Source: Pseudolabrys sp. (lineage in GTDB: Bacteria > Pseudomonadota > Alphaproteobacteria > Rhizobiales > Xanthobacteraceae). From it: DNA of 64,000 nt. The notes below the pieces were generated by a model. That model was not told the origin of the DNA and searched no databases. It was given only the letters and a program-made list of their open reading frames with translations. The stretch lies in the NCBI GenBank assembly GCA_030684935.1, contig JAUXXH010000011.1:1-64000 (forward strand). The letters are read 5' to 3'. Within the stretch, counting starts at the first letter, position 1, and each line of letters starts with the position of its first letter. The position numbers and the translations under genes are program-made. Shown piece by piece: positions 13,739-44,342 of the stretch.

Positions 13739-16700
13739 TCTGCGGCCTCCAAAGTGTTCGTGGTGTTGGTCGCGACGGGTAACTCTTCGGGTTGACCGGG
13801 GGTCGGCGTATCGAGCCAGTCGACTTTCGACATCTTGCGTACGATGACGAATTCGTCGCGGTTCGATCCGACGGTGCCGTAATAGTTGAAGCCCCAGGAC
13901 TGCTGCGCGTAACCGCCGATCATGTGGGTCGGCTTGAGCACGGCGCGGGTGACGGAGTTGTGGATGCCGCCGCGCTGGCCGGTCATCTCGGAGCCCGGCA
14001 CATTCACGATCTTCTCCTGTGCATGATACATCATGCACATGCCTTGCTTGACGCGTTGCGACACCACCGCGCGTGCGACCAGCGCGCCGTTGGCGTTGAA
14101 CGCCTCGATCCAGTCGTTGTCGACGATGCCGGCCTTTCTGGCATCGATCTCGCTGATCCACACGCAGGGGCCGCCGCGCGACAGCGTCAGCATCAGCAGA
14201 TTGTCGGTATAGGTGGAGTGGATGCCCCACTTCTGGTGCGGCGTGATGAAGTTCAGCACCACGGCGTCGTTGCCGTTCGGCTTGCGGTCGATCACCGGAT
14301 TGACCGACTTGGTGTCGATCGGCGGGCGATAGACGCAGAAGCCCTCGCCGAAGGCGCGCATCCACAGATGATCCTGATAGAGCTGCTGACGGCCGGTCAG
14401 CGTGCGCCACGGGATCAGTTCATGGACGTTGGTGTAGCCGGCGTTGTAGCAGACCTTTTCCGACTCCAACCCCGACCAGATCGGCGACGAGATGATCTTG
14501 CGCGGCTGCGCCACGACATCGCGAAAGCGGATCTTTTCGTCTTCCTTGGGGATCGCGAGATGGGTGTGCTCCAGACCGGTGAAGCCGCCGAGCGAAGCCC
14601 AGGCCTTGACCGCGACTTCGCCGTTGGTTTCCGGCGCCAGGCTGAGAATGACTTCGCAGGCGTCGATGTCGCTATCGATGCGGGCAAAGCCCTTGGTCGC
14701 CCCCTCCTCCAGCACGACACCGTTGAGCTGCTTCAGGAAGTCGACCTCATGCTCGGTGTTCCAGGCCATGCCCTTGCCGCCGTTGCCGAGCTTGGCCATC
14801 AGCGGCCCGAGCGAGGTGAAGCGCTTGTAGACGTTGGGATAGTCGCGCTCGACCACCGTGACCGCCGGCATGGTCTTGCCGGGGATCGGATCGATCTCGC
14901 CCATCTTCCAGTCCTTGACATCGACGGGCTGCGCAATCTCACCCGGCGTATCGTGCATGATCGGGGTCAGCACCACGTCCTTCTCGACGCCGAGCACTTC
15001 GGGCGCGACGGCAGAGAACGCCTTGGCGATGCCCTTGTAGATGTCCCAGTCGCTGCGCGATTCCCACACCGGGTCCACCGCCGACGTCAGCGGATGAATG
15101 AACGGGTGCATGTCGGAGGTGTTGAGGTCGTTCTTCTCGTACCAGCTCGCGGTCGGCAGAACGATGTCGGAGTACATGCAGGTGGTCGACATGCGGAAGT
15201 CGAGCGTGACCAGCAGGTCGAGTTTTCCTTCCGGCGCCTTGTCGTGCCAGACGACATCGGATGGCTTCTTCTTGCCGTCCTCGCCGAGATCCTTGCCCAT
15301 GACGCCATGCTTGGTGCCGAGCAGATGCTTGAGGAAATATTCGTGTCCCTTGCCGGACGCGCCGAGCAGATTGGAGCGCCAGATGAACATGTTGCGCGGC
15401 CAGTTGGCCGGATTGTCCGGGTCGTCGCAGGCGAGCTTCAGCTTGCCCGACTTCAGGTTCGCGGCGACGTAGTCCTTCGCTTCCATGCCCGCGGCGGCGG
15501 CGAGCTTGGACACCTCAAGCGGGTTGGTCTGCAACTGCGGCGCTGACGGCAGCCAGCCCATGCGCTCGGCGCGCACGTTGTAGTCGATCAGCGCGCCATC
15601 CCACGGACCCGCTGGCGCGGTCGGCGACAGCACTTCCGACACGTCGAGCGTTTCGTAACGCCACTGATCGGTGTGCGCGTAAAAGGCCGAGGTCGAATTC
15701 ATCTGGCGCGGCGGACGGCCCCAATCGAGACTGAAGGCGAGCGGCAGCCAGCCCGATTGCGGCCGCAGCTTTTCCTGGCCGACATAATGCGACCAGCCAC
15801 CACCGGACTTTCCGACGCAACCGCACATCACCAGCATGTTGATGATGCCGCGGTAGTTCATGTCCATGTGGTACCAGTGGTTCAGACCGGCGCCGACGAT
15901 CACCATCGAGCGGCCCTTGGTCTTCTCGGCGTTGAGCGCGAATTCGCGCGCGGTCATGATGATCTGGTCGCGCGGCACGCCCGTGATCTTTTCCGCCCAG
16001 GCCGGCGTATAAGGCTGCATGTCGTCATAGCTCTTGGCGAGATGCTCGCCGCCGAGACCGCAATCGACGCCGTAATTGGCGACGAACAGGTCATAGACCG
16101 ACGCCACCACGGCCTCGCCTTCGACCAGGTGCAGCTTCTTCATCGGCACATTGCGTACCAGCACGCTCGGATGATCGGTGCCCTGGAAATGGTCGTGCTC
16201 GCGATTGCCGAAATAGGGGAAGCCGACGGCGGCGATGCCGTCCTTCACGTCATTGAGCGACAGGCGGAGCTTCGTGTCTTGGCCGTCGGACGCCTGCTCC
16301 TGCAAATTCCACTTGCCCTTTTCGCCCCAGCGGAAGCCGACCGAACCCTTCGGCACCACCACGGCGCCGGTGGTTTCGTCATAGGCGACCGTCTTCCATT
16401 CCGGATTGTTGGCTTCGCCGCAGCCTTCGATGAAGTCGGAGGCGCGCAGGAAGCGCTCGGGCACGTAGTGATCGCCCTGCTTCACCAGACGCACCAGCAT
16501 CGGCATGTCGGTGTACTGCCGGGCATAGTCCTGGAAGTACTGCGCCTGCCGGTCGATGTGAAATTCGCGCAGGATGACGTGGCCCATGGCCATGCCGAGC
16601 GCGGCGTCGGTGCCCTGCTTCGGTGATATCCACAGGTCGGCGAATTTGGAGGCCTCGGAATAGTCCGGGCAGATCACGACGCTCTTGGTGCCCTTGTAGC

Positions 16701-17511
16701 GGACCTCCGTATAGAAGTGGGCGTCGGGCGTGCGCGTCTGCGGCACGTTCGAGCCCCACAGAATGAGGAACCCCGAATTGTACCAGTCGGCCGATTCCGG
16801 CACGTCGGTCTGCTCGCCCCAGGTCTGCGGCGACGCCGGCGGCAGATCGCAATACCAGTCGTAGAACGACATGCAGACGCCGCCGAGCAGCGACAGGTAG
16901 CGCGAGCCCGCGGCGTAACTCACCATCGACATCGCCGGGATCGGCGAGAAGCCGAAGATACGATCGGGGCCGTAGGTTTTGGCGGTATAGGCATTCGCCG
17001 CCGCGATCAGTTCATTGACCTCGTCCCAGGTCGAACGGACAAAACCGCCGAGGCCGCGCTTCTCGACATACGCCGCGCGCTTTTCCGGATTCTCGACGAT
17101 CGATTTCCAGGCGGCGACCGGCGTCATCAGGACGCGCGCCTCGCGCCACAGCTTGAGCAGCCGCGAGCGCACCAGAGGGTATTTCACGCGGTTGCCGGAG
17201 TAGAGGTACCAGCTGTAGCTGGCGCCCCGCGCGCAGCCGCGCGGTTCATGGTTCGGCAAATCGGGCCGCGTCCGCGGATAGTCGGTCTGCTGGGTTTCCC
17301 AGGTGACGATGCCGCCCTTGACGTAGATTTTCCACGAGCATGAGCCGGTGCAGTTCACGCCGTGCGTCGATCGCACGATCTTGTCGTGCTGCCAGCGCTT
17401 GCGGTAGCCCTCCTCCCAGCGCCGGTCTTCGCTGGTGGTGACGCCGTGACCGTCGGAGAACGGCTCGCTGGCGCGGCTGAAAAACGTCAAACGATCGAGA
17501 AAATGGCTCAT
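13735..17511 (-). CDS. narG: Respiratory nitrate reductase, alpha (molybdenum) subunit
   Basis: A 1258-residue catalytic subunit reducing nitrate to nitrite at a bis-MGD molybdenum centre on the cytoplasmic side. The unusual [4Fe-4S] FS0 ligands are intact: His50, Cys54, Cys58 and Cys93, the same numbers as in E. coli NarG. The Mo-Asp region ESADWYNSGF and the substrate-funnel motif WGSNVPQTRTPDAHF are present. Length is full. It begins 12 bases after narK and overlaps narH. Confidence 0.98.
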   Translation of the reverse strand: MSHFLDRLTFFSRASEPFSDGHGVTTSEDRRWEEGYRKRWQHDKIVRSTHGVNCTGSCSWKIYVKGGIVTWETQQTDYPRTRPDLPNHEPRGCARGASYSWYLYSGNRVKYPLVRSRLLKLWREARVLMTPVAAWKSIVENPEKRAAYVEKRGLGGFVRSTWDEVNELIAAANAYTAKTYGPDRIFGFSPIPAMSMVSYAAGSRYLSLLGGVCMSFYDWYCDLPPASPQTWGEQTDVPESADWYNSGFLILWGSNVPQTRTPDAHFYTEVRYKGTKSVVICPDYSEASKFADLWISPKQGTDAALGMAMGHVILREFHIDRQAQYFQDYARQYTDMPMLVRLVKQGDHYVPERFLRASDFIEGCGEANNPEWKTVAYDETTGAVVVPKGSVGFRWGEKGKWNLQEQASDGQDTKLRLSLNDVKDGIAAVGFPYFGNREHDHFQGTDHPSVLVRNVPMKKLHLVEGEAVVASVYDLFVANYGVDCGLGGEHLAKSYDDMQPYTPAWAEKITGVPRDQIIMTAREFALNAEKTKGRSMVIVGAGLNHWYHMDMNYRGIINMLVMCGCVGKSGGGWSHYVGQEKLRPQSGWLPLAFSLDWGRPPRQMNSTSAFYAHTDQWRYETLDVSEVLSPTAPAGPWDGALIDYNVRAERMGWLPSAPQLQTNPLEVSKLAAAAGMEAKDYVAANLKSGKLKLACDDPDNPANWPRNMFIWRSNLLGASGKGHEYFLKHLLGTKHGVMGKDLGEDGKKKPSDVVWHDKAPEGKLDLLVTLDFRMSTTCMYSDIVLPTASWYEKNDLNTSDMHPFIHPLTSAVDPVWESRSDWDIYKGIAKAFSAVAPEVLGVEKDVVLTPIMHDTPGEIAQPVDVKDWKMGEIDPIPGKTMPAVTVVERDYPNVYKRFTSLGPLMAKLGNGGKGMAWNTEHEVDFLKQLNGVVLEEGATKGFARIDSDIDACEVILSLAPETNGEVAVKAWASLGGFTGLEHTHLAIPKEDEKIRFRDVVAQPRKIISSPIWSGLESEKVCYNAGYTNVHELIPWRTLTGRQQLYQDHLWMRAFGEGFCVYRPPIDTKSVNPVIDRKPNGNDAVVLNFITPHQKWGIHSTYTDNLLMLTLSRGGPCVWISEIDARKAGIVDNDWIEAFNANGALVARAVVSQRVKQGMCMMYHAQEKIVNVPGSEMTGQRGGIHNSVTRAVLKPTHMIGGYAQQSWGFNYYGTVGSNRDEFVIVRKMSKVDWLDTPTPGQPEELPVATNTTNTLEAAE

Positions 17512-20444: not shown

Positions 20445-20458
20445 TTGATTATTATCAA
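20445..20458 (+). promoter_or_regulatory. Perfect FNR-type box upstream of the Crp/Fnr gene
   Basis: TTGAT-TATT-ATCAA is a perfect dyad centred 66 bases before the start of the divergent Crp/Fnr gene. TACGAT at 20485-20490 is a plausible -10. It implies activation or autoregulation by an FNR/FixK/DNR-type protein. Confidence 0.8.
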
Positions 20459-20517: not shown

Positions 20518-21207
20518 ATGCGTCAGGCTGAATCCGATCTCGTCCGCGCGCTGCCGCTCTTCGAAAATGTCAGCGAGAAGCATTTCGACGAGTTGATGAG
20601 CACAGCATTCCTGCAGCGATTCCCCCGAGGCGTTACCCTGATCCGCGAAGGCGACCTGCCCGACTTCCTGCATATCGTCGTCGAGGGCACGGTCGAGCTA
20701 TTCGCCAGCCACGACTCGCACGAAACTGCGCTCGATATTCTCGAACCGGTAACGACATTCATCCTGGCTGCGGTGATCCGCGACGACGTTTACCTCAAAT
20801 CGGCGCGCACGCTGACGCCCGCGCAGATCCTGATGATCCCAGCCCCGGCGGTGCGCAACGCCTTCGACCGCGACGCCGCATTTGCGCGCGCGCTGGTGAA
20901 CGAACTGGCCGTTCGCTACCGTTGCGTCGTACGCTCGCTCAAGAACGAAAAGCTGCGCAATAGCGCCGAGCGGCTGGCGAACTGGCTGCTGCAGGAAGAA
21001 GCGCACCAGGGAAACAACCGCCGCGTCAGTCTGGAGATCGACAAGCGCACGCTGGCTTCACGTTTGGGAATGACACCGGAGAACCTCTCCCGCAACCTGG
21101 CTCAGCTCTCAAAGCATGGCGTCAGCAAGTCGGGAGCCGACCTGGCCATCGACGATATTGCCGCGCTTAGACAATTCGCCAAGCCGAACAGCCTCATCGA
21201 TCAATAG
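20518..21207 (+). CDS. Crp/Fnr family regulator of nitrate respiration (DNR/NarR-like)
   Basis: A 229-residue regulator with a cyclic-nucleotide-type beta-barrel (about 10-110), a long dimer helix and a C-terminal helix-turn-helix (177-202). The recognition helix carries Glu188, Ser191 and Arg192 (PENLSRNL), the ExxSR pattern that reads TTGAT half-sites. Only one Cys (136) is present, so it lacks the oxygen-sensing FNR iron-sulfur cluster and resembles DNR/NnrR/NarR proteins that sense NO or nitrite. It is divergent from narK and very probably activates it and itself through the two boxes between them. Confidence 0.92.
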   Translation: MRQAESDLVRALPLFENVSEKHFDELMSTAFLQRFPRGVTLIREGDLPDFLHIVVEGTVELFASHDSHETALDILEPVTTFILAAVIRDDVYLKSARTLTPAQILMIPAPAVRNAFDRDAAFARALVNELAVRYRCVVRSLKNEKLRNSAERLANWLLQEEAHQGNNRRVSLEIDKRTLASRLGMTPENLSRNLAQLSKHGVSKSGADLAIDDIAALRQFAKPNSLIDQ

Positions 21208-32873: not shown

Positions 32874-33245
32874 ATGACAAGTTCAACCGAAACTCGGTTG
32901 CAGAAAGAGAACGATGAGCTGCGCAAGCTGACCGTCCGGTTAGGCATCGCCATTCTGCGGGCCGTCCGCGAAAGTACGATGTTGCTGCGGACCGTCCTTG
33001 AAAGAGAGTCTTTGCGGGTGCTCCCCAGCGTAGCGGCTTCACCAGTGCCAGAGGACGTCGCCCCAGACGAGATGGCTCTGCTCCTATGTGACGCAGCGAT
33101 GCTGTGTGCGCACCTAAGCCGCGCCTCTAACGACGGTCGCTTGGGACAGGAATTTGAGAATCTCAGCGTCGAGCTTGCGGACGCGGCTCAGCACCTGAAG
33201 ACCCTGTTCGACGATCCCGTTACGTTTCAGCAAACAAACCAATGA
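32874..33245 (+). CDS. Small helical protein of unknown function
   Basis: A 123-residue protein starting MTSSTETRLQKENDELRKL, with an N-terminal heptad-like coiled coil and a conserved-looking LGIAILRAVRESTMLLR stretch. I recognise no characterised domain. Its stop overlaps the start of the following Crp/Fnr gene (ATGA), so the two are probably co-transcribed. The longer upstream frame looks non-coding. Confidence 0.6.
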   Translation: MTSSTETRLQKENDELRKLTVRLGIAILRAVRESTMLLRTVLERESLRVLPSVAASPVPEDVAPDEMALLLCDAAMLCAHLSRASNDGRLGQEFENLSVELADAAQHLKTLFDDPVTFQQTNQ

Positions 33246-33980
33246 ATGCCCAATCCGCGCCTTCGCACGGAAACCCTCGCTGGTGCATTCCGGAGAGCAC
33301 GTGCAGATTTTGTATCGCGTTTGAACCCAGTTTATGCGATGCGGCCGCTGACGAACCAAAAGGCCCACGGCAGTCCGGCCATGTAGTGCCGGCGCGGCAC
33401 ATTCTCTGGCGTGAACGGGATCTGCACGACGTCGTCCCATTCATTTGCAGCGGCTGGGGCACAACTTTCCTGTCTCTGTCGAACGGCCGCCGCCAGATCA
33501 CTTCATTCCTGCTCCCCGGCGATATCATTTCGGCGGCATTTCTGATTGATTCGCAGCCCAATTGCCGAATCGAAGCTATTGCAGATGTTTATTACCGCGT
33601 TTTCAACCGTGTCGAATTTCGAGCGCGGCTTTGCAAGCAACCCAACTTACTAGAGCTTTTCTAAGACTTGGGCTGACGAAAAGGTACGGGCCGACGAACT
33701 CATCGCTGATCTCGGTCGCCGTACGGCAGAGGAACGCATTGCGCGCATGATCTTCAACCTGGTCGACCGCCTCGCAAGACGGGGATTGGTGCGCGGCGAA
33801 CCCGTTGAGATCGACTTTCCATTACGCCAGCACCATATCGCCGATGCGACTGGCCTCACGCCGGTGCATGTCAGCACGGTGCTCAGGGAATTTCGCCGCG
33901 GTGGTCTCATCACCATCAGCAACCGCTCACTAACGCTGCTCGATCAGGACGGACTAAGACGCATCGCAGATATGCGCTAG
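33242..33980 (+). pseudogene. Crp/Fnr family regulator disrupted by a frameshift
   Basis: The first frame (33242-33664, 140 codons) encodes the sensory barrel: IRCSGWGTTFLSLSNGRRQ-like strands and FLLPGDIISAAFLID. It ends at TAA inside CTTTTCTAAG. A different frame resumes immediately (KTWADEKVRADELIADLGRR, then TAEERIARMIFNLVDRL) and carries the dimer helix and helix-turn-helix through 33980. Skipping one base at about 33662 restores a normal Crp/Fnr protein. The N-terminus has Cys15, 21, 24 and 32. It may be a decayed gene, a real frameshift or a sequencing error. Confidence 0.75.
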
Positions 33981-34004: not shown

Positions 34005-34505
34005 TCACGCCTTCTCCTTTTTCGATCGTAGACCTCGGACGATGGACAGAACAGCAGGAACGAGCAGGTGCTCGGCTGCCGTGTCCAACGGGCGATGCAC
34101 GAAACCCGAGATGGTATCCTTGGTTTGCCGGATCTGCTCGCCGAACAAATCGACGGTGCCTTTGATGTCGCGGGCATCTGCTTGAATGGCGTCAAGGGCC
34201 ATTTTGCGAACATCGAAGGCAAGCTCGATCTCCGGCCCCGGCCGAATGCTCCTGCCCAGGAACACGATGATCAGCGCGATGATCAGATCGGCGACGGCAA
34301 CAATCGCTGCCGCCCAAACAGGCCCCCAGGATTGCTGCAATCCATAGAAGCCCGCCACATTGGCCATGCCGAGGCCAAACACCCCAACCAGGCCCGCAAG
34401 CGCGAACAGCCCGAACCGGCGTGCCATGACATTGAGCCAGATTCTCCCGATCAGGGAGTCCGCCTTGCCGAGTACCTGGAGATCACGGACAATATTGTCG
34501 ATCAT
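34005..34505 (-). CDS. YqjE/holin-superfamily membrane protein
   Basis: A 166-residue protein with two hydrophobic helices at about 32-60 and 65-85 in a hairpin, followed by an amphipathic, charged C-terminal half. This layout and its position after a YqjD-like gene match the YqjE (Holin-X, PF07332-like) proteins of the yqjCDEK stress locus. The assignment is by architecture and context. It lies 30 bases after the YqjD-like gene. Confidence 0.65.
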   Translation of the reverse strand: MIDNIVRDLQVLGKADSLIGRIWLNVMARRFGLFALAGLVGVFGLGMANVAGFYGLQQSWGPVWAAAIVAVADLIIALIIVFLGRSIRPGPEIELAFDVRKMALDAIQADARDIKGTVDLFGEQIRQTKDTISGFVHRPLDTAAEHLLVPAVLSIVRGLRSKKEKA

Positions 34506-34955: not shown

Positions 34956-35576
34956 TTATTGGGCCTGACTGGTGCTGGTGGCTTTCTTGAACGCTTCCCG
35001 CGCAGCCTGATTGGCGCGGTCGAAGTTGGCGCGCGTTTCAGTCAAAGCGGCGTTGAGGGCGGACCAGGACTCCGTTCCCGCACGGGCGAGGTCTTGCAGT
35101 TTTTTCTCGGCAACGACAGCGTCGGCCATCATGCGCGAGACGGTCGCGTCGATTTCGCGCCGGCGCTCGATGGCGAATTCCTTTCCGGCAGCACTGAGCT
35201 TGTCCGCGGTTTCGCGCCACGCATTGAGCTGAGCAGTCACCTGGCTTTGGAAGACAGCCTGCTGTTGCTCGAGCCCCTTGCCGAACGTCTCAAGGTATTT
35301 CCCGGTCTCGACCTGGAAGCCTTTCAACTCGGTTTCCAAACGCTCCTTGGCGCTGTCCCAGGCGCCCTCGCCGGCCTCGGCCTGTGCCTTGACGGTGCTT
35401 TCGAATTCGTTCCGCTTCTTTTTCATCTCGGCAATACATTTATCGGCCTTGACGCGGGTCTCAGCCTGCATTTGGGCGGACTTGTTTTCAAGCGACGCCA
35501 AGGTGGCATCCATCTCGTCGATCCGCTCCTTGGCCCAACTGAGAAAAAAGTGAGCGCTGCTGGTTTGAGTAGGCAT
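34956..35576 (-). CDS. Cytoplasmic coiled-coil protein (paralogue of the 36726 gene)
   Basis: A 206-residue, almost entirely helical protein rich in Ala, Glu, Lys and Gln, resembling apolipoprotein/phasin-like coiled coils. AAGGAC lies before the ATG (MPTQTSSAHFFLSW). There is no signal peptide. It shares DEMDATLASLE near the N-terminus and a SWSALNAALTETRANFDRAN tail with the secreted protein at 36726, so the two are paralogues. A perfect FNR-type box (35688) and a GTTCG-N4-CGAAC dyad (35643) lie upstream. Confidence 0.75.
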   Translation of the reverse strand: MPTQTSSAHFFLSWAKERIDEMDATLASLENKSAQMQAETRVKADKCIAEMKKKRNEFESTVKAQAEAGEGAWDSAKERLETELKGFQVETGKYLETFGKGLEQQQAVFQSQVTAQLNAWRETADKLSAAGKEFAIERRREIDATVSRMMADAVVAEKKLQDLARAGTESWSALNAALTETRANFDRANQAAREAFKKATSTSQAQ

Positions 35577-35642
35577 GACAGGTCCTTTCCAATGTGATTC
35601 TTTACCGTGGCTTGTTTCTGCCAGCCCGACGCGCCCCGTTCT

Positions 35643-35656
35643 GTTCGATTTCGAAC
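35643..35656 (-). promoter_or_regulatory. GTTCG-N4-CGAAC dyad, copy 1
   Basis: GTTCGAAATCGAAC on the reverse strand, followed by AG, 67 bases upstream of the coiled-coil gene. The perfect copy of a motif found before three other units of this block (36627, 40106, 41041). It is also in the leader of the Crp/Fnr gene at 35875. Confidence 0.6.
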
Positions 35657-35687
35657 CATCGGTGCCGGGTCGAAGGAGACCGCCCTT

Positions 35688-35701
35688 TTGATGTACATCA
35701 A
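35688..35701. promoter_or_regulatory. Perfect FNR-type box in the stress block
   Basis: TTGAT-GTAC-ATCAA is a perfect dyad in the divergent region between the coiled-coil gene (start 35576) and a Crp/Fnr gene (start 35875). Either gene could be controlled by oxygen or NO through an FNR/FixK-type protein. Confidence 0.75.
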
Positions 35702-35874
35702 TGAATAACCTGATACCGTATGCACCTTTGCTTTGTGCAGTTAGCTGATCGGAGTGCCTTCGATCCCAGTGAAGTACGTTCATTGGGAAAAGACGGTGTC
35801 TGCAATGCATCTCTTACAGGTGGGAATATTACGCAGCGACGAACCGATAGTCAGTTTGTCAAAGGTATGCCGCC

Positions 35875-36666
35875 ATGCACGTGCCCTCTATCGGTTCGGT
35901 CCAGCCGCTCCACGAGCGCAAAGGCATCAATAATCGTCTTCTGCTTGCACTGCCGCCCGCAACATTGGATCGGATACTGCGGGTCTCCGAACCAGTGAGT
36001 CTAGTCCGCGGGCAGCGGATCGACTGTGCCGACCAGCCCATCAAGCACATACATTTCATCAATCGAGGACTGGTCTGTATTGCCAAGACTGTGGAGGACG
36101 GGCGCACGGTTGAAATTGGCGCCGTTGGCATTGAAGGTGTTGCCAACCTGCTGCCGTTTGTTGGCATCCAGAAGACTATTCTGGACGTGATCGTGCAAAT
36201 TCCGGGAACGGCTCTTCGCATGGGATGTGACGTTCTGAGGCGCGACCTGGAGAATGACACCGCCTTTCGCCAAGTGGTGCAAGATTACGCGCGCTTCAGC
36301 CTGAGCGAACTTGCCCGGCATATTGCGTGTGGTCGGCTGCATCATATCGAGCAGCGGTGCTGCCACTGGCTGTTGATCGCGCATGACAACGCCCTGTCGG
36401 ATGATTTTCCCGTGACCCATGAGTTCCTTGCCATGATGCTCGGCTACCAGCGCGCCGGCGTTTCGATCGCCATGCATTCGCTCGTGAAAGCCGGATTGAT
36501 TGAGCACAAGCGAGGGGCCGTGACCGTTGTCAACCGGCCAGGCCTCGAAGCTGCAGTCTGCGACTGTTACCGCGAGATGCGAAACGAACTCGATGAATTC
36601 CTCCCACCCGCCAAAACGGCGCGAGTGTTCGGATTCAAACAGAACAAAATTGCCGGCCGACGCTAG
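35875..36666 (+). CDS. Crp/Fnr family transcriptional regulator
   Basis: A 263-residue regulator: cyclic-nucleotide-type barrel (about 25-140), dimer helix (QDYARFSLSELARHIACG) and C-terminal helix-turn-helix (about 183-215: THEFLAMMLGYQRAGVSIAMHSL). The recognition helix differs from the ExxSR of FNR proteins, so it should read another site; the GTTCG-N4-CRAAC dyads around it are candidates. Several Cys are scattered (including RCCHW), not in the FNR pattern. It sits between the two coiled-coil paralogues and is likely the local regulator. Confidence 0.92.
   Translation: MHVPSIGSVQPLHERKGINNRLLLALPPATLDRILRVSEPVSLVRGQRIDCADQPIKHIHFINRGLVCIAKTVEDGRTVEIGAVGIEGVANLLPFVGIQKTILDVIVQIPGTALRMGCDVLRRDLENDTAFRQVVQDYARFSLSELARHIACGRLHHIEQRCCHWLLIAHDNALSDDFPVTHEFLAMMLGYQRAGVSIAMHSLVKAGLIEHKRGAVTVVNRPGLEAAVCDCYREMRNELDEFLPPAKTARVFGFKQNKIAGRR
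36627..36640 (+). promoter_or_regulatory. GTTCG-N4-CAAAC dyad, copy 2
   Basis: GTTCGGATTCAAAC followed by AG, 86 bases before the secreted coiled-coil gene and inside the 3' end of the Crp/Fnr gene. Confidence 0.5.
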
Positions 36667-36725
36667 CGTTACCCTTATTGAGGCAGAAGAGGCTCGCATT
36701 CGGGGCCTTCCTCATGGAGGGTGCC

Positions 36726-37427
36726 ATGAAGTTTTCTCATCTTTTTCTGCTGGGCTCCACGCTTTTGATTGCGCCACTGGTTGCGCAGGCTCAGGTCGCG
36801 GGTCCTGTCACGAGCGGAAGCGGCGTTGCAGCACGCAGCAGCGCCCACCTTTCTATTGACTGGGCGAAGTCGCGCCTCGATGAGATGGACGCCACTTTGG
36901 CGTCGCTGGAGAAGAAGCTCGGCGATCTGAAATCGGAGAGCCAGGTCAAGGCTGAGCGCGCCATCGCGGAGATGCGTGATCATCGCGAGGCGTTGAAGAC
37001 CGTCATCGAAGAGAAACGGCAATCGAGCGAAGCCGAGTGGCAACAGGCCAAGGCAACGGTCGCGTCCCGCTGGACCGCATTCGAGGCCGCCGTTCAGAAC
37101 CGGGTGGACGCAACCGGCGACCGTGTTGCAGACCAGAACGAGATGTTCGTCGCTCGCGCCGAGGCCCAACTCAAGGCCTGGCAGGACATGATCGACAAAC
37201 TGGAAGCTTCGGCGAAAGGCGTCGCCGCAGACCGCAAGCGCGAGATCGACACCGCCATCGCGGGTATTCGCGCCGATGCGGAAGTCACCAAGGCCACGCT
37301 GGAGGCATTGAAGCGGTCAGGAAGGGAATCGTGGACGGCCCTGACCGGAGCACTGGCCGAATCCCGCGCCGCCTTCGACCGCGCCAGTCAGACTGCCTCC
37401 GATGCGTTCAAGCGCGCGATCAACTGA
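36726..37427 (+). CDS. Secreted coiled-coil protein
   Basis: A 233-residue protein with a clear signal peptide (MKFSHLFLLGSTLLIAPLVA-QAQ) and a mature chain that is one long, charged, helical coiled coil. GGAGG precedes this ATG; a longer frame starts 16 codons earlier but has no ribosome site. The shared motif DEMDATLASLE and the FDRASQTASDAFKRAIN tail make it a paralogue of the cytoplasmic protein at 34956. It is probably periplasmic. HdeD follows after 37 bases, suggesting one transcript. Confidence 0.8.
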   Translation: MKFSHLFLLGSTLLIAPLVAQAQVAGPVTSGSGVAARSSAHLSIDWAKSRLDEMDATLASLEKKLGDLKSESQVKAERAIAEMRDHREALKTVIEEKRQSSEAEWQQAKATVASRWTAFEAAVQNRVDATGDRVADQNEMFVARAEAQLKAWQDMIDKLEASAKGVAADRKREIDTAIAGIRADAEVTKATLEALKRSGRESWTALTGALAESRAAFDRASQTASDAFKRAIN

Positions 37428-37464
37428 GCCCTCTTCCCTCACGCAGAGCACAAGGAGACTTCCG

Positions 37465-38061
37465 ATGAGTACCTCGACACCAAGTGACATACAGAACGCC
37501 TTCACCGAGACCTTGCGGTCCTACTGGGTTTTATTCCTGGTCCAGGGCGCGATCATGATGATCCTCGGCGTCCTCGCCGTCCTATGGCCTCAGATCTCGA
37601 CTGTCGCCGCCGATATCTTTATTGGCTGGTTATTCTTGCTCAGCGGAATCGTGGGGCTTGTCACGATGTTCTGGGCACCGAGCATACCTGCGTTTCTCTG
37701 GTCACTTCTTACCGCAGCCCTCTCGTTGATCGTCGGCGTCCTGCTTCTCTGGCACCCAGTCGCGGGCGTCGTCTCGCTGACGCTGGCGCTTATTGCCCTC
37801 TTCATCGTCGAAGGAATCTTTCAGATCGCGGCTGCGATACGATATCGCGACACGTTCCCTGAGTCATGGGGATGGATGGTGATGAGCGGGATCGCCGACT
37901 TGGCTCTCGCCGCCCTCATCATCAGCGGCTGGCCGGGCACCGCGAGCTGGGCTCTCGGACTGATTGTCGGCGTCAACCTCATCACCTCGGGCTTGGCGAT
38001 CACGATGGCGGCACTCGCCGGGCGTGGCCTCGTCAACGGTGTGGCAAGCGCGACGCGCTGA
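37465..38061 (+). CDS. HdeD family acid-resistance membrane protein
   Basis: A 198-residue protein with six hydrophobic helices in three DUF308 pairs, as in HdeD. The opening SYWVLFLVQGAIMMILGVLA is typical. HdeD contributes to acid and heat tolerance at high cell density. AAGGAG lies eight bases before the ATG. The gene follows the secreted coiled-coil gene and is followed by a DUF1269 gene. Confidence 0.92.
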   Translation: MSTSTPSDIQNAFTETLRSYWVLFLVQGAIMMILGVLAVLWPQISTVAADIFIGWLFLLSGIVGLVTMFWAPSIPAFLWSLLTAALSLIVGVLLLWHPVAGVVSLTLALIALFIVEGIFQIAAAIRYRDTFPESWGWMVMSGIADLALAALIISGWPGTASWALGLIVGVNLITSGLAITMAALAGRGLVNGVASATR

Positions 38062-38178
38062 CAATTCCCGGAATTCGACGCAGCCGAACGATGTCGTAAT
38101 GCCTGACGGATGAAAAAAAATCGCCATCGCTGCTGCTTACTGAGTGTGGAAAATGCAACCAGGAAATGGAGTGTTGAT

Positions 38179-38748
38179 ATGTCAAATCTCGTCGTTATCG
38201 GTTTTAAGAACGAGTCGTTTCGCGCCTCGCAGGTTCTCGACAAGCTGGTCGCACTGGACGACAGCTGGATCGTCGATCTCAAAGACGCGGTCGCTGTTTA
38301 CCGAGATTATCGCGGCGAACTAAGGCTCGATCAGAGCTTTCAGATGACCACTGGCGAAGGCGCCGGCTTGGGTCTCTTCTGGGGGTCCATGATCGGGGCA
38401 CTGTTGGCGATTCCCTTTACCGCCGGGGCGAGCGCGGCGGCAGCGGGGGGCGCGCTGGCGGCCGGCGCCTTGACGGGCGGCACACTCGGTGCAGTCGGCG
38501 GAGCGATCGATGCCGACTGGTGGAAGGACGAGTTCGGAATTTCCGAAACCTTCGTCCGCGACGTGGGTCGGATGATCGGGACCGGCGATTCCGCCATCTT
38601 CATGCTGCTCCGTTCCGCCGAGCCCGAATACGTGGCTCAGCAGTTGGCTCCCTACGGCGGCAAAGTGCTCTGGGCGACGCTGACCAGTGAGCAAAAAGCC
38701 AAGCTGCAGGCAATTCTCGACAGGCCGGGATTCAAGCGAGTCGCTTGA
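38179..38748 (+). CDS. DUF1269 family protein with glycine-zipper helix
   Basis: A 189-residue DUF1269 protein. The N-terminus (SNLVVIGFKNESFRASQVLD) and the Gly/Ala-rich membrane-inserting stretch (about 58-112) are characteristic. The family is linked to membrane stress, function unknown. I start it at MSNLVV with GGAG upstream; a frame 23 codons longer lacks support. It is followed by a large inverted repeat. Confidence 0.88.
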   Translation: MSNLVVIGFKNESFRASQVLDKLVALDDSWIVDLKDAVAVYRDYRGELRLDQSFQMTTGEGAGLGLFWGSMIGALLAIPFTAGASAAAAGGALAAGALTGGTLGAVGGAIDADWWKDEFGISETFVRDVGRMIGTGDSAIFMLLRSAEPEYVAQQLAPYGGKVLWATLTSEQKAKLQAILDRPGFKRVA

Positions 38749-38767
38749 TCTCGCCGCTCCTGCGAAT

Positions 38768-38808
38768 GACGCCCGGCGCCCCCTGCATTCAGCGTGACGC
38801 CGGGCGTC
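38768..38808 (+). terminator. Inverted repeat, probable terminator
   Basis: GACGCCCGGCG (38768-38778) and CGCCGGGCGTC (38798-38808) are perfect 11-bp arms 20 bases after the DUF1269 stop. There is no T run, so termination may be weak or the element may act otherwise. Confidence 0.4.
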
Positions 38809-38928
38809 CTGTGTGAACTCTCAACTCGTTCCAGGTCATCTCCAAGAGAGCAAGCGTACGATGGGGCCGGCTGACCAGTTGAGAAATCTCACCACCAGAA
38901 ACAAGGCGGCAACAGTCAGCGTGCTTCG

Positions 38929-40005
38929 ATGAGCATGGGCACACATCAGCGAGAGAGTGGCGTTCTGGCGTTCATGCTGGTGGCGATATCGGTTGCGTTC
39001 GGCTGGATCATGTGGCCGTTCGCCGGCGCGATACTCTGGGGCGTGCTGCTTTCGATCATCTTCGCTCCGCTGTACCGGCTGCTGCTGACGTGGATGCCGC
39101 GATGGCCGAACGCTGCATCCGCCGCGACGGTGTTGCTGATCGCGCTCCTGGTCGTGCTTCCGATGACGCTGGTTGCGGCCGTATTGGTCCAGGAGGTATC
39201 CGGTCTGGTGGGGCGATTGCAGTCGGGAGAGTTGGATGTGCGGCAGCCGCTCGCCGATGTCCGAACCTCTCTGCCGGAATGGGCGGCGAACCTGCTGACG
39301 CAGTTCGAGACGACCGGCATCGCCGCCCTGCGGGACAAGTTCTCGACGGCCTTCATGGAAGGCGGCAAACTCGTTGCGCGCCAGATATTGAGCTTCGGCC
39401 AGGTGACGGTGGAATTCCTTCTCGGCGTCTTCGTCATGCTCTACCTGCTGTTCTACCTGCTGCGCGACGGGAATGCGCTGCTCACATATAGCCAGCGCGC
39501 CATTCCGCTGCCGCCGGAGCAGCGGCAGGTCCTGGCCAGCAGCTTTACGGATACGGTTCGTGGTGTGCTCAAGGGCGATCTCGTTGTCGGTCTGGTCCAG
39601 GGCTCATTGGGCGGTCTGATTTTCTGGGTATTGGGCCTGGGCACGCCGGTGCTGTGGGGCGCGGTGATGGCGGTGCTGTCTCTGCTGCCCGCGTTCGGCA
39701 CTGGTTTGGTCTGGGCTCCTGCAGGGATCTATCTGCTTCTGACGGGGTCCGTATGGAAAGGCCTCATTCTCCTGGCCTTTGGCACGCTGGTGATCAGCAC
39801 GATCGATAATGTCTTGCGACCGGCCTTGGTCGGCAAAGACGTCAAGATGCCGAGCTATGTGGTGCTGGTGTCGACGCTTGGCGGCCTCGCCGTTTTCGGG
39901 GTCAACGGTTTCGTGATCGGACCATTGCTGGCGGCCCTCTTCCTGACGGCCTGGGAGATGTATCTGCAGACCGGTGGCGGACAACAGGATGGCGCCTCTC
40001 CCTGA
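38929..40005 (+). CDS. AI-2E (PerM) family transporter
   Basis: A 358-residue membrane protein with about eight hydrophobic segments and the conserved C-terminal half (LPAFGTGLVWAPAGIYLL, then VLRPALVG, GVNGFVIGPLLAALFLTAWEMY) of the AI-2E/PerM family. Members export AI-2 or other small molecules or act as sodium/proton antiporters; substrate unknown here. Two start codons are close together (38929 and 38935), neither with a clear ribosome site. It follows the DUF1269 gene by 180 bases. Confidence 0.9.
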   Translation: MSMGTHQRESGVLAFMLVAISVAFGWIMWPFAGAILWGVLLSIIFAPLYRLLLTWMPRWPNAASAATVLLIALLVVLPMTLVAAVLVQEVSGLVGRLQSGELDVRQPLADVRTSLPEWAANLLTQFETTGIAALRDKFSTAFMEGGKLVARQILSFGQVTVEFLLGVFVMLYLLFYLLRDGNALLTYSQRAIPLPPEQRQVLASSFTDTVRGVLKGDLVVGLVQGSLGGLIFWVLGLGTPVLWGAVMAVLSLLPAFGTGLVWAPAGIYLLLTGSVWKGLILLAFGTLVISTIDNVLRPALVGKDVKMPSYVVLVSTLGGLAVFGVNGFVIGPLLAALFLTAWEMYLQTGGGQQDGASP

Positions 40006-40105
40006 TTGGAGACGGCGTCCGCCGCAGCTTGGGAACGCAGCGGGGGTGGGCCGTTTCCCAATGCGGCCGCTGGCCTCTTTTTCGACCAGGAGAATGACTT
40101 GGGGT

Positions 40106-40119
40106 GTTCGGAATCAAAC
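40106..40119 (+). promoter_or_regulatory. GTTCG-N4-CAAAC dyad, copy 3
   Basis: GTTCGGAATCAAAC followed by AGTAC, 116 bases before the rhomboid gene, in non-coding sequence. Confidence 0.55.
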
Positions 40120-40234
40120 AGTACGCGCCACCACAGGGGTGCAACTTCTGCCCTGCAATGTGTGGCTCAGTCCCTGGTCTGGACAGGTTCTGAAGCCACG
40201 GTCCTGTCCCACACACCGGTCAGACGGTCGCCTC

Positions 40235-40957
40235 ATGTTTCCGCTCTCCGATGACAATCCTCGCCACAGAGTGCCGGTCGTTACGCTGACCATCATAGGC
40301 ATTTGCATTTCGGTCTTCATTTGGCAGGTTTCGGTGACAGGCCAGACCGGTGACGCAGCGGTTCTCTCCCTAGGAATGATTCCGGCGCGGCTGTTCGGTG
40401 ACTTTGGTTTGCCTGCGGGTGTCATTGCCATCCCGGCCTGGCTGACAATCTTCACTTCACTCTTTCTGCACGGTGGGTGGCTCCATCTTGGCGGCAATAT
40501 GCTGTTCCTATGGATATTTGGCGACAATGTCGAAGACGCGATGGGCCGCCCTCGTTTCATCGTCTTCTATCTCGCCTGCGGAGTGGCTGCCGCTCTGGCC
40601 CAGGCGGCGGCTAACCCATCTGCCACCGCGCCTATGATCGGCGCGAGTGGAGCGATAGCCGGTGTTCTGGGCGGTTACATTTTGCTCTACCCGCACGCCA
40701 ACGTGCGTACGCTCGTCTTCCTCGGCTTTTTCGTAACGGTTCTTCGAATCCCCGCCGCGATCGTCCTCGGCATTTGGTTTCTCCTTCAGTTTTTGAATGC
40801 GCTCGGCCCCGGCACTACGGAAGCCGAGGGCGTCGCCGTCTGGGCGCATGTCGGGGGCTTCGTCGCCGGCCTGGCTTTGGTGGCGTTCTTCAAGCGATCA
40901 GAGATCCAACTATTGCAGCCGCCGCGGTCCCGACCGTTCACACGCGAGGCGTCCTGA
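40235..40957 (+). CDS. Rhomboid family intramembrane serine protease
   Basis: A 240-residue six-helix protein. The catalytic dyad is visible: Ser138 in GASGAIAGVLGGY and His205 in WAHVGGFVAG, with Asn88 in HLGGNMLFLWIFGDN supporting the oxyanion hole. It should cleave membrane proteins near their transmembrane helices. I start at MFPLSDDNPR, the usual family opening; the longer upstream frame is rich in Arg/Pro and non-conserved. Its substrate may be one of the anchored proteins of this block, an inference. Confidence 0.93.
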   Translation: MFPLSDDNPRHRVPVVTLTIIGICISVFIWQVSVTGQTGDAAVLSLGMIPARLFGDFGLPAGVIAIPAWLTIFTSLFLHGGWLHLGGNMLFLWIFGDNVEDAMGRPRFIVFYLACGVAAALAQAAANPSATAPMIGASGAIAGVLGGYILLYPHANVRTLVFLGFFVTVLRIPAAIVLGIWFLLQFLNALGPGTTEAEGVAVWAHVGGFVAGLALVAFFKRSEIQLLQPPRSRPFTREAS

Positions 40958-41040
40958 GTAGAGAGGCAGGGCATCTGAGCCAGCGCTACATGGACGCCGT
41001 GACGTTGAGCGCAGGAAGGCGAGAAATAATGGCCGCAACT

Positions 41041-41054
41041 GTTCGAAATCAAAC
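41041..41054 (+). promoter_or_regulatory. GTTCG-N4-CAAAC dyad, copy 4
   Basis: GTTCGAAATCAAAC followed by AGTGTG, 112 bases before the first of the tandem DUF1269 genes. Over 18 bases it differs from copy 3 at one position. Confidence 0.6.
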
Positions 41055-41165
41055 AGTGTGAAGGTCGGATGCAACGATAGATGGATCAAGTTGATACGCG
41101 ACGCCCGATCGCATCATGCGCCAACCATCGCGGAAGGCGCCAAACACCAAACAGGAGTGCCTTCC

Positions 41166-41966
41166 ATGAACAAGATGCTGGTTGCAGTATTCGATACCGA
41201 GACCGCCGCCTTCGAGGGTCTTGACGCCCTGAGAGAGCTGCACAAGAACGGCGACGTCACGCTGTATGCATCGGCCGTCATCGTCAAAGACAAGACGGGA
41301 AACTTCAGCATCAAGCAGACCGCCGACGACGGTCCTGTTGGCACCGCGCTCGGACTTCTCACGGGCGGCATGATCGGCATCCTCGGAGGGCCGGCCGGCG
41401 TGGCCATAGGCGCCACACTCGGCGGCTTTACCGGCTTCTTGTTCGACATGGACGAGAGCGGCATCGGCGCGGCGTTTCTTGATGATGTGTCGAAAACGCT
41501 GACGGCCGGCAAGGCGGCCGTGCTGGCGGACATGGAGGAAAGCTGGACGACACCTGTCGATACCCGATTGCATGCGCTTAACGGGATTGTCTTCAGGCGG
41601 CTTCGCTCGGAGGTCGTCGAAGATCAAATTGTTCGCGAAAGCGCCGCCTTCGAAGCGGATCTGAAAGCGCTCCAGGACGATCTGAAGCAAGGGGTCGCGG
41701 AGGACCGGGCAGCGATCCAGAAGGACATCGAGCAGGTGAAGAAGCAAATCAAGGCGACCCAAGACCAGGCCAAAGCGCGGCTTGATCAGGCCAAGGCCGA
41801 AATGGAGGCCAAGGTTAAGGCGCTCCAGGATCAGGCCAAAGACGCGACCGGCCGCGCCAAGGCGCGCATCGAGAAACGCATTGCTGACACCAAGGCGGAT
41901 TTCGAGGTGCGGTCAAAGAAGCTCAACCAGGCCTGGGCACTCACCAAGGAAGCGCTGGCCGCGTGA
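41166..41966 (+). CDS. DUF1269/coiled-coil protein, tandem copy A
   Basis: A 266-residue protein in two parts. The N-terminal DUF1269 domain (1-160) holds a glycine-zipper membrane segment (LGLLTGGMIGILGGPAG). The C-terminal 100-residue amphipathic helix has Lys/Gln/Ala-rich 11-residue-like repeats (KATQDQAKARLDQAKAEMEA), like apolipoprotein or LEA proteins. The start is the ATG preceded by AGGAG, not the longer frame. A near-equal-length copy follows 39 bases later. A role in binding or protecting membranes under stress is inferred from the architecture. Confidence 0.85.
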   Translation: MNKMLVAVFDTETAAFEGLDALRELHKNGDVTLYASAVIVKDKTGNFSIKQTADDGPVGTALGLLTGGMIGILGGPAGVAIGATLGGFTGFLFDMDESGIGAAFLDDVSKTLTAGKAAVLADMEESWTTPVDTRLHALNGIVFRRLRSEVVEDQIVRESAAFEADLKALQDDLKQGVAEDRAAIQKDIEQVKKQIKATQDQAKARLDQAKAEMEAKVKALQDQAKDATGRAKARIEKRIADTKADFEVRSKKLNQAWALTKEALAA

Positions 41967-42005: not shown

Positions 42006-42806
42006 ATGAACCAGATGCTGGTTGCCGTTTTTGATACCGAGATGGCAGCATTCGAGGCGCTGAGCACCTTGAGAGAGCTGCACAAGCAAGGCAGCATCTC
42101 ACTCTACGCATCGGCTGTCGTCGTAAAGGACAAGGCAGGGCGGGTCCGCGTCAAACAGGAAGCCGAGTACGGGCCCGCCGGCACAGCGCTGGGACTGCTC
42201 ACGGGTAGTATCCTCGGTATCTTGGGAGGGCCCGCTGGCTTGGCAGCGGGCGCCTCGCTCGGGGGCATCACTGGCTTTCTGTTTGACCTGGACAAGATTG
42301 TTGTTGGCGCAACGCTTCTCGACGATACGTCGAAAACCCTCACTGCCGGCAAGGCCGCCGTGCTAGCGGAAGTGCAGGAGAGCTGGACGAGCCTGGTGGA
42401 CGAGCGGTTGCGCAAGCAGGGCGGCACGGTCTTCAGGCAGTTCCGCGTCGATGTCGTCGAAGATCAACTAGTCCGTGAAGGAATTGCTCTCGAAGCGAGC
42501 CTTAGAGGCCTCCGGGACGAACTTAGTCATGCGATGGCCCAGGATAGGGCAGCAATCCAACGCGATATCGATCAGACGAAGGCGCGCCTGAAAGCGACGC
42601 AAGATCAAGCCATAGCCAGGCTTGATCAGGCCAGGGCCGAAATGGATGCGAGGGTAACTGCGCTGCGGGACCAAGCCAAAGCCGCAAGCGAACGCGCCAG
42701 GGAGCGGATCGCGAAACGCATTGCCGACGCCAAGACAGATTTTGGATTGCGCTCGAAGAAACTCAACCAGGCCTGGGCTTTGACCAAGGAAGCGTTGGCC
42801 GCCTAG
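42006..42806 (+). CDS. DUF1269/coiled-coil protein, tandem copy B
   Basis: A 266-residue protein with the same length and layout as copy A, about two-thirds identical by eye, ending in the same KLNQAWALTKEALAA. AAAGGAAAG precedes the ATG. It clearly arose by tandem duplication and has diverged mainly around residues 45-55 and 95-105 and in charged positions of the C-terminal helix. Co-transcribed with copy A. Confidence 0.85.
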   Translation: MNQMLVAVFDTEMAAFEALSTLRELHKQGSISLYASAVVVKDKAGRVRVKQEAEYGPAGTALGLLTGSILGILGGPAGLAAGASLGGITGFLFDLDKIVVGATLLDDTSKTLTAGKAAVLAEVQESWTSLVDERLRKQGGTVFRQFRVDVVEDQLVREGIALEASLRGLRDELSHAMAQDRAAIQRDIDQTKARLKATQDQAIARLDQARAEMDARVTALRDQAKAASERARERIAKRIADAKTDFGLRSKKLNQAWALTKEALAA

Positions 42807-42846
42807 CCCATCTGTTCATTTTTTCGCCACGCGTTGGAGTTTGGGC

Positions 42847-43710
42847 ATGGACTTATTTAGCACACTCTTTCTCTTATTTCTGGTCGTGTCCACTCTGCAA
42901 CCCATGTTGCAGGTCCGACATCAGGCGATGCAGCGCGCACGGCAGATTGCCGTAATCGAGAAAGAGCGCGGGTCGCGCGTCATCACCATGATTCATCGGC
43001 AGGAAACGAGGCGATTCTTCAGCATTCCCGTTTCACGTATGATCGATCTTGAAGACGCGCAGGTGATCATACCTGCCATTCAGCAAACGCCACCGGACAA
43101 GCCCATTGACCTGGTCCTGCACACGCCAGGCGGCATGCTGCTCGCAGCAATGCAGATCGCGCGCGCACTGAAAGCCCATCCCGCGAAAGTCACCGTTTAT
43201 GTCCCAGTATACGCGATGTCCGGTGGCACTCTGCTCGCGCTTGCCGCCGACGAGATCGTGATGGAGGACTTTTCGGTATTAGGACCGATCGATCCTCAGA
43301 TTATTGGCCTTCCTGCCACCGGCCTTATCGAAGTCAAGAATCTAAAGCCGATCGCCGAGATCAATGATCTGACGCTGATTTTTGCTAGCCTCAGCGAAAA
43401 GGCACTGAAGCAAGTGAAATCGGGTGCGCTAGAGCTGATCGGAGACGATCTGCCACCCGAGAAAGCCGCAACACTGGTAGACAAGCTCGCCGGTGGCCAA
43501 TGGACGCACGATTATGCATTGACGGCAAAGGAAGCGATCGAACTTGGGCTCCCCGTAAAGAGCGGCATACCCGGGTCGATCATGAAACTGATGCAGCTTT
43601 ACCCTCAGCCGGTACGGCTACTGCCGTCGATTGAGTTCCTGCCGGCGACCCCGTCTCGCCGGGCCGCCATGGCCGAAACGGCCGCACTTTTCATAGGAAA
43701 AACGCTGTAA
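42847..43710 (+). CDS. ClpP-like SDH family membrane serine protease
   Basis: A 287-residue protein with one N-terminal helix (1-22) and a ClpP/crotonase-fold protease domain of the serine dehydrogenase proteinase (SDH) family. The oxyanion segment HTPGGMLLAAMQIAR is at about 92-106 and the nucleophile Ser125 in YAMSGGTLLALAADEI. LGPIDPQIIG is a family hallmark. I start at ATG 42847 with GGAG seven bases upstream; a TTG two codons earlier is possible. Its partner proteins are often stomatin-like; none is here. Confidence 0.88.
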   Translation: MDLFSTLFLLFLVVSTLQPMLQVRHQAMQRARQIAVIEKERGSRVITMIHRQETRRFFSIPVSRMIDLEDAQVIIPAIQQTPPDKPIDLVLHTPGGMLLAAMQIARALKAHPAKVTVYVPVYAMSGGTLLALAADEIVMEDFSVLGPIDPQIIGLPATGLIEVKNLKPIAEINDLTLIFASLSEKALKQVKSGALELIGDDLPPEKAATLVDKLAGGQWTHDYALTAKEAIELGLPVKSGIPGSIMKLMQLYPQPVRLLPSIEFLPATPSRRAAMAETAALFIGKTL

Positions 43711-43812: not shown

Positions 43813-44223
43813 GTGCAAATTTTCTCCCTAACGGGAGGTTATCGGCGTCCACAATCGACCCCCGCCATTCGGCCTGATGCGGCTCGCTTTGAATCAAAGC
43901 GGGCGGTGGGGGATGCTGTTGCGGCTTTGCTCCCGGCTGCCCCAGACACCGTTGCGGCCTATCTGGCATACGAAGCCGCCCGCGGTACAAAGCCCTCGAC
44001 CATCGGCCGCCGCTGCGCGGCGATCCGCTACGTGCACAGCCTGGGCGGCCACCTCAACCCGACGGCAGACGAACAGGTCAACCCCAAGGTGCGCCGTAAC
44101 GGCATGACGGTATCTCATCCTGACGGTACACGACGGTACCGCGACTTGTACCTTCAGTATCGCTGGATGCCCAATGGACCGACGTGGACCACGCCGGACA
44201 AATTGGCTTATTTTTCAAGATAA
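43813..44223 (+). pseudogene. Tyrosine recombinase remnant beside tRNA-Phe
   Basis: An open frame of 136 codons whose middle (about residues 38-90: APDTVAAYLAYEAARGTKPS, then TIGRRCAAIRYVHSLGG) resembles the N-terminal SAM-like core-binding domain of phage-type integrases. The similarity stops after ADEQV and no catalytic domain follows, so the gene is truncated. It lies 44 bases from the 3' end of tRNA-Phe, the classical site for island integration. Assignment is by pattern only. Confidence 0.6.
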
Positions 44224-44266
44224 TAGCAGAGACGAAAGATCGTGCTGGACGGGGGTGGACAGTAAA

Positions 44267-44342
44267 TGGTGCCCAGGGCCGGAATCGAACCAGCGACACT
44301 GCGATTTTCAATCGCATGCTCTACCAACTGAGCTACCTGGGC
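44267..44342 (-). tRNA. tRNA-Phe (GAA)
   Basis: A 76-base cloverleaf on the reverse strand: acceptor GCCCAGG/CCTGGGC, D-arm AGCTCAGTTGGTAGAGC, anticodon arm TGCGA-TTGAAAA-TCGCA with anticodon GAA, T-arm GGTTCGATTCC, and encoded CCA. In relatives a tRNA-Phe follows yacG, as it roughly does here. Its 3' end faces the integrase remnant. Confidence 0.97.

Follow-up and report, generated by a model that had tools for sequence, protein, structure and literature searches.

What reads a short inverted repeat that stands ahead of several genes of one stress block, and how might these genes have come under its control? The question is raised by a 64,000-nucleotide stretch of Pseudolabrys sp. (Alphaproteobacteria, Xanthobacteraceae; contig JAUXXH010000011.1 of assembly GCA_030684935.1, positions 1 to 64,000 of the forward strand), hereafter the window. 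An earlier note, made from the sequence alone, had described there four copies of a 14-bp dyad, GTTCG-N4-CRAAC, upstream of genes for two coiled-coil paralogues, a rhomboid protease and a tandem DUF1269 pair. It had also pointed to the product of a Crp/Fnr-family gene lying among the copies (35875-36666, hereafter crp) as the possible reader. We followed up these claims in the window, in its own assembly and in homologous loci of other genomes. The reading that we favour, and consider likely, is that the dyad is the operator of the 35875 protein, which would activate a local stress regulon, crp itself being probably a relay switched by a FixK/FNR-type regulator, with replaced target operators.

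The dyad in the window and in homologous loci

A pattern scan returned the copies at 35643-35656, 36627-36640, 40106-40119 and 41041-41054, with AG directly after each, so that number, positions, target genes and trailing AG all stand as the note had them. The first copy is a full palindrome and thus matches both strands; the gene that it faces lies on the minus strand. Gaps between core dyad and start codon (Table 1) range from 66 to 115 nt, where the note had given 67-116. The 64 kb hold five strand-matches (four sites), where 100 dinucleotide shuffles gave 0.31 on average and never more than 4; the chance expectation of 0.2 put forward in the note was of the right order but low, in view of the density outside the block given below. 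Unremarked in the note, copy 2 sits inside crp itself, at the 3' end of its coding region.

In the whole assembly (3.67 Mb, 89.6% complete), the short form GTTCG-N4-CRAAC occurs at 29 distinct sites, 25 of which lie outside the block, at a density of ~0.44 per 64 kb; the spacer of 15 of these 25 has three or four G/C. A control pattern read backwards gave 12 strand-matches, against 47 for the true pattern, and the short form is somewhat enriched across the whole genome, beyond the block. With 29 sites, it is insufficient to carry the argument alone. The flanks, however, lengthen the match to ~17 bp, and this extended form, KGTTYGRWWTCRAACAG, matches perfectly at the four block sites only, with one single-mismatch match elsewhere in the assembly. 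The genome-wide scan proposed in the note thus denies uniqueness to the short form, but grants it to perfect copies of the extended one.

Scanning with coiled-coil protein 2 gave eight loci (L064-L071). Three of them carry an orthologue of the regulator: L064 from Bosea sp. AAP35 (79% identity), L066 from a Rhizobiaceae bacterium (73%) and L067 from Bradyrhizobium sp. AUGA SZCCT0283 (66%). Each has three dyads with 0-1 mismatch, one for coiled-coil gene 1, one at the crp 3' end and one for the DUF1269/coiled-coil gene; copies 1 and 4 are kept ahead of the orthologous genes, and the comparison of orthologous promoters suggested in the note therefore speaks for the dyad. The gene that follows crp in L066 and L067 is HdeD-like, not coiled-coil gene 2. 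In the remaining five loci (L065, L068-L071) neither a regulator homologue in the fetched DNA nor a dyad at up to three mismatches was found. At up to one mismatch, distinct sites across the genomes number three for L066 (three of them in the block), four for L064 (three) and six for L067 (three).

Using the regulator to search 391, 397 and 385 genomes added seven more distant loci (L079-L084, L086; 42-63% identity). Outside the window, nine of ten loci (42-79% protein identity) have the extended dyad, with 0-2 mismatches, at the crp 3' end (span -60 to +150 of the end of the gene), compared with 1 of 1402 background windows; at the level of sequence comparison, this strongly supports the proposal that the dyad is a Crp/Fnr operator. 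Among ~19 distinct distant paralogues (23-36% identity; 22 loci were taken, three of which repeat an already counted gene), the best match had four mismatches downstream and three upstream of the gene. The plasmid homologues taken (34-39% identity, six of 281 matching records) had the site at the crp stop in no case. Upstream of the paralogous crp genes of L101 and L106 stand other palindrome-like sequences, TGTTCACTTGTGAACAC and TGTTCACTAGTGCACAT, perhaps the own operators of those paralogues.

In a held-out test, a matrix derived solely from the four sites of the window ranked the crp-adjacent site first in all of L079-L084, narrowly in L084 (15.6 vs 15.4), and in L064, L066 and L067 gave the three highest ranks to the three sites of the block. 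Best scores were clearly lower, 7.7-11.5, in the five stress loci without crp in the fetched DNA. Within crp, the operator codons for conserved residues are unchanged in 6/6 cases in L064, 3/3 in L067 and 2/2 in L079, which are small numbers; by the same measure, crp codons outside the operator reach 60%, 61% and 48%, respectively.

The exact extended pattern was also looked for in 60 genomes, the own one plus 59 relatives. It has matches in eight others, at nine loci that by eye hold no homologous block, and these were treated as chance. Fourteen of 15 off-block dyad loci overlap open frames of at least 100 codons; L145 does not, and L126, not being centred on its site, is uninformative.

The regulator and the geometry of the promoters

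The 35875 protein has a Crp-type C-terminal helix-turn-helix (HTH; Table 1). Its N-terminal cyclic-nucleotide-type domain remains under the cut-off (PF00027, 21.2 bits vs 27.5), and no NCBIfam model exceeds its own. A recognition helix of the E-x-x-S-R form is typical of FNR and FixK, where E and R read TTGAT. This helix is absent here: in the alignment with DNR (3dkw, E 0.0025), Q-P-E-T-F-S-R faces q-r-a-g-v-s-i. Operators of the TTG(A/C)-N6-(T/G)CAA type are likewise absent from the targets 36726, 40235 and 41166, the only ones between 31 and 45 kb being at 34182 and 35688. By recognition helix and by target operators, the protein thus appears to stand outside the FNR/FixK/DNR subfamily, and the altered operator is consistent with an FNR-type helix that has lost its E and R. 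No account of its Crp/Fnr group was found in the titles and abstract starts searched. A second Crp/Fnr-type gene of the window (33242-33980) is split: its N-terminal portion (33242-33664) stands in another frame than the HTH portion (33747-33980), through either decay of the gene or an assembly error.

For the promoter geometry, we aligned 19 dyad sites taken from ten loci. Counted from the first T, offset 38/39 shows an excess of TATAAT-like hexamers (permutation p = 0.002 for all sites); this would place the centre of the dyad near -41.5/-42.5, as in class II activation. Because the crp stop codon falls on the hexamer position at five sites, the test was redone without them, and the 14 remaining sites gave p = 0.004 with 38 as best offset. 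At copy 1, the -10-like hexamer would fall at ~35614-35620. A one-sided extension of the dyad, AG-A-N-C, would overlap a weak -35 region, in line with class II activation.

Under our proposal, TGTTYGRWWTCRAACA(G) would be the operator read by the 35875 protein, which would bind as a dimer centred near -41.5/-42.5 and act as an activator. At least four transcription units would be switched on, those of the two sll1863-family coiled-coil proteins with the HdeD-like protein, of the rhomboid and of the DUF1269 pair. The site within the crp 3' end would drive the next gene, and the HdeD-like gene, which has no dyad of its own, is probably read from the same copy 2. The regulator and its sites would together form a local regulon of the accessory stress block. 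The Escherichia coli CRP site is TGTGA-N6-TCACA. Like it, the present element is a dyad of 16 bp, has TGT...ACA as outer bases and would have class II geometry; unlike it, the inner bases read TGTTCG, and the cNMP-binding domain of the protein is under the Pfam cut-off.

FixK/FNR-type boxes, a probable operator exchange and rival readings

A second element, also unremarked in the note, is found between crp and coiled-coil gene 1: a strict FixK/FNR-type box, TTGATGTACATCAA, present in this spacer in all four loci compared (window, L064, L066, L067). The 64 kb of the window hold two strict boxes, this one and another at 20445-20458, for a simulated mean of 0.1 and a maximum of 2. More generally, 7 of 11 loci (the window plus 6 of the 10 others) have a box within ~260 bp upstream of the crp homology start. 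The 35688 box is probably an input to crp, or a co-input to gene 1. A candidate owner of such boxes is the FtrB-type activator encoded at 20518-21207. This gene adjoins narG (13738-17511) and a gene for a NarK-type transporter, and the 20445-20458 box lies in the divergent spacer. We propose that crp is probably switched through TTGATGTACATCAA by a FixK/FNR-type regulator, perhaps FtrB; low oxygen or nitrogen oxides would then act on the first-tier regulator, this one on crp, and crp on the stress block, whose response would be indirect.

We then compared the promoters of related stress genes. Coiled-coil protein 1 had matches in 53 genomes of the 391 searched, own included, belonging to 8 genera. 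The crp-unlinked set, defined by no crp in the fetched flanks, comprises 34 loci with 32 distinct upstream sequences: the 29 best-scoring loci other than our own (L153-L181), plus L065 and L068-L071. A FixK-type box stands 47-78 bp before the start in 33 of these 34 promoters (the miss is L178), compared with 19 of 1473 background windows, and none of the 34 sll1863-type genes has the dyad upstream, the best match having four or more mismatches. Dyads with up to two mismatches occur in 7 of 1186 background windows of that comparison, which would be explained by six other dyads of the block in L064, L066 and L067 and by one match there that lies off the promoters. In the four crp-linked loci, it is the dyad that ends 60-68 bp before the gene-1 start, and the FixK-type box is at 105-112 bp.

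At coiled-coil gene 1, the compared promoter sequences thus bring out an exchange of one operator type for the other. The comparison covers this gene and the HdeD-like gene, for which the exchange is suggested: in L070 the HdeD-like gene has a FixK-type box, and the DUF1269/coiled-coil gene has none of its own within 250 bp. The FixK-type state is far commoner among the loci seen, and may be the ancestral one. According to this proposal, crp would be a paralogous relay placed into a direct circuit below a low-oxygen regulator, the operators of its targets having been exchanged. A fuller scenario, tentative and to our mind with slightly less than even chances, is that of a mobile-looking island bringing its own Crp/Fnr paralogue as a relay between the FixK/FNR-type low-oxygen regulator of the host and older stress genes under direct control, FixK-type operators being replaced in position by one of altered specificity and one new operator arising inside crp.

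How a paralogous transcription factor can take over a regulon, given that all target promoters have to change, has long been asked in the study of regulatory evolution. Both states seemingly coexist here, a FixK-type box where no regulator is linked, and the new dyad beside the new regulator; if true, this would offer an example from nature of a paralogue switching operators in concert, legible across present-day genomes. With a defined operator, a candidate protein, homologues at 42-79% identity and predicted starts, specificity and intermediates become directly testable. A candidate operator and input are also supplied for this Crp/Fnr group and for sll1863/HdeD/DUF1269 stress blocks.

Related arrangements are known. 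According to PMC6710368, the FixLJ-FixK2-NnrR cascade of Bradyrhizobium diazoefficiens has FixK2 standing over NnrR and conveying low oxygen to a subset of targets, and the one known site of NnrR resembles a FixK2 box. The likeness is that one Crp/Fnr-type protein would stand above another, with a first-tier box in the promoter region of the second regulator. The second tier here differs by a clearly different operator and by adjacent targets, and relatives of at least one target bear FixK-type boxes where the regulator is unlinked. FixK2 itself, according to PMC5582078, has the consensus TTG(A/C)-N6-(T/G)CAA and activates directly, a nosR start being reported at 40.5 bp from the axis. The class II placement predicted here would be common to both systems, and the same type of box is found at 33/34 related stress genes; the four targets of the window, unlike those of FixK2, carry TGTTYG...CRAACA, the FixK-type box being in the crp/gene-1 spacer only. 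In a table of PMC6710368, bll5026 (hppA) of B. diazoefficiens is listed with a putative box, TTGTTCGAAATCAA, at -83 and a first fold value of -7.0; this box looks like part of the dyad.

Synechocystis sll1863 is tabled in PMC6789579 as an unknown protein with plus signs. Both coiled-coil targets match its family model, NF052504, above the cut-off. Nothing was found on the regulation of alphaproteobacterial members in the literature searched. Nor was anything on this operator, or on the regulation of such a block, found in titles and abstract starts from partial listings, which do not establish absence from print. Compared with the known systems, what would be new is that the operator is distinct, that the regulon is local and that operators have apparently been replaced.

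Other explanations were weighed. Of these, the one that we take most seriously, though it seems to us rather unlikely, concerns the 35688 box, which would be a second activator site for coiled-coil gene 1, used by an FNR-type and a Crp-type protein jointly, and not a switch of crp. The centres of box and dyad are indeed 45, 42, 41 and 44 bp apart in the four crp-linked loci, about four helical turns. Yet in L079, L080 and L082 a box is found upstream of crp and no coiled-coil gene 1 in the fetched region, L080 and L082 being box-rich. It is improbable, in our judgement, that the dyad belongs to the split Crp-like gene (33242-33980) or to FtrB (20518) rather than to the 35875 protein. Both alternatives are Crp/Fnr-type HTH proteins of the same window, and co-conservation is not binding; however, the split gene is frame-broken here, and neither of its halves turned up in a search of the homologous loci, which do hold the 35875 homologue. 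FtrB, which was not among the proteins searched for in those loci, has a helix of the E-x-x-S-R type that fits TTGAT boxes better.

The repeat could also work in RNA, as the hairpin of an attenuator or terminator, being an inverted repeat upstream of genes in which a full 6-bp stem is possible in 7 of 19 copies. The stem is mismatched in the other 12, position 12 being A in 10 copies and G in 9 and position 5 being C in 18, and no T-run follows the dyad in the sites shown, which makes this reading highly improbable. Chance, or descent by duplication of one promoter, we hold to be least probable of all: although the two coiled-coil genes are paralogous (41%), no repeat of 18 nt or more takes in the sites, whose flanks look unrelated. 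The sites moreover persist in loci with regulators only 42-63% identical, and the conservation at the crp end and the ranking by the held-out matrix both contradict such an origin.

Several observations weigh against the reading of the dyad as the operator of a 35875 relay, or limit it. Taken by themselves, the four window sites give no significant -10 signal (p = 0.58), and in five distal sites it is weak (p(max) = 0.11); the structure model of the protein, built on a four-row alignment, is too poor for use (pLDDT 40). Copy 3 is without comparative support, no rhomboid homologue having been found in L064-L071, and L068 and L069 are short contigs. No dyad stands at the crp end in L086 (50% identical regulator), where the best match has five mismatches, and the codon test had no informative codon in L066. 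A perfect dyad occurs in L126, from the genome of L068 (G1153), which has no regulator homologue at E <= 1e-35; in Cupriavidus sp. EM10 (L151, 5981-5997), a one-mismatch dyad lies ~1.25 kb downstream of a 36% identical regulator. On the side of the upper tier, the 35688 box could act on coiled-coil gene 1 instead of crp, no FixK/FNR-type box is found upstream of crp in L081, L083, L084 and L086, and those of L080 (4 in 19.5 kb) and L082 (6 in 14 kb) are less telling, these two loci being box-rich. In the strict form, the box is present in only 19 of the 34 crp-unlinked promoters, vs 5 of 1473 background windows. Finally, the genomes of L070 (by coordinates G295, hence the genome of L084) and of L173 (G530) hold a regulator homologue elsewhere, so that the exchange tracks linkage of the regulator and not its mere presence.

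Gene content and context of a probable island

The features of the block are collected in Table 1. The two coiled-coil genes are paralogues, and coiled-coil protein 2 has an apparent signal peptide by eye.

Table 1. Dyad copies, boxes and genes discussed (positions in the window; copies are given as 17-mers)
Feature	Position	Strand	Remark
FtrB-type Crp/Fnr activator	20518..21207	+	beside nitrate-respiration genes; NF006901 317.4 bits, cut-off 211
Coiled-coil protein 1, sll1863 stress family	34956..35576	-	NF052504 72.2 bits, cut-off 35
Dyad copy 1, GGTTCGAAATCGAACAG	35641..35657	-	66 nt from core dyad to coiled-coil gene 1 (start 35576)
FixK/FNR-type box TTGATGTACATCAA	35688..35701	.	between crp and coiled-coil gene 1
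Crp/Fnr-family regulator (crp), candidate reader of the dyad	35875..36666	+	PF13545 50.1 bits, cut-off 27
Dyad copy 2	36626..36642	+	85 nt from core dyad to coiled-coil gene 2 (start 36726)
Coiled-coil protein 2, sll1863 stress family	36726..37427	+	NF052504 76.0 bits, cut-off 35
DUF308/HdeD-like membrane protein	37465..38061	+	PF03729 75 bits
DUF1269 protein	38179..38748	+	PF06897 63.8 bits
AI-2E family transporter	38929..40005	+	PF01594 175.8 bits
Dyad copy 3	40105..40121	+	115 nt from core dyad to rhomboid gene (start 40235)
Rhomboid protease	40235..40957	+	PF01694 118.6 bits
Dyad copy 4	41040..41056	+	111 nt from core dyad to DUF1269/coiled-coil pair (start 41166)
DUF1269 plus coiled coil, first of pair	41166..41966	+	PF06897 34.1 bits
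DUF1269 plus coiled coil, second of pair	42006..42806	+	PF06897 30.4 bits; 68% identical to first
SDH-type Clp-fold serine protease, block end	42841..43710	+	NF047768 346.8 bits, cut-off 250; TTG start as listed

The G+C content is 0.58-0.62 at 32-44 kb, vs mostly 0.62-0.69 outside. The block ends near a tRNA-Phe gene (44267-44342), with an integrase remnant beside it (43813-44342 region) that is sub-threshold (E = 0.12), and at E <= 1e-60 the regulator was found in no other genome of its own genus among the 391 searched. Low G+C, the tRNA gene, the weak integrase remnant and this rarity in the genus make the block probably an accessory genomic island. Within the window, the tRNA-Phe 3' end was not found repeated exactly over 16 nt or more.

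In Bosea sp. AAP35 (L064, 12799-19695), relaxase-like and coupling-protein-like open frames were seen by eye after the block, and given these conjugative-looking frames the block may travel. Downstream of crp, L080, L081, L082 and L086 encode a small helical protein of the NIRHYRxLL...LLxEEExKL type, as judged by eye.

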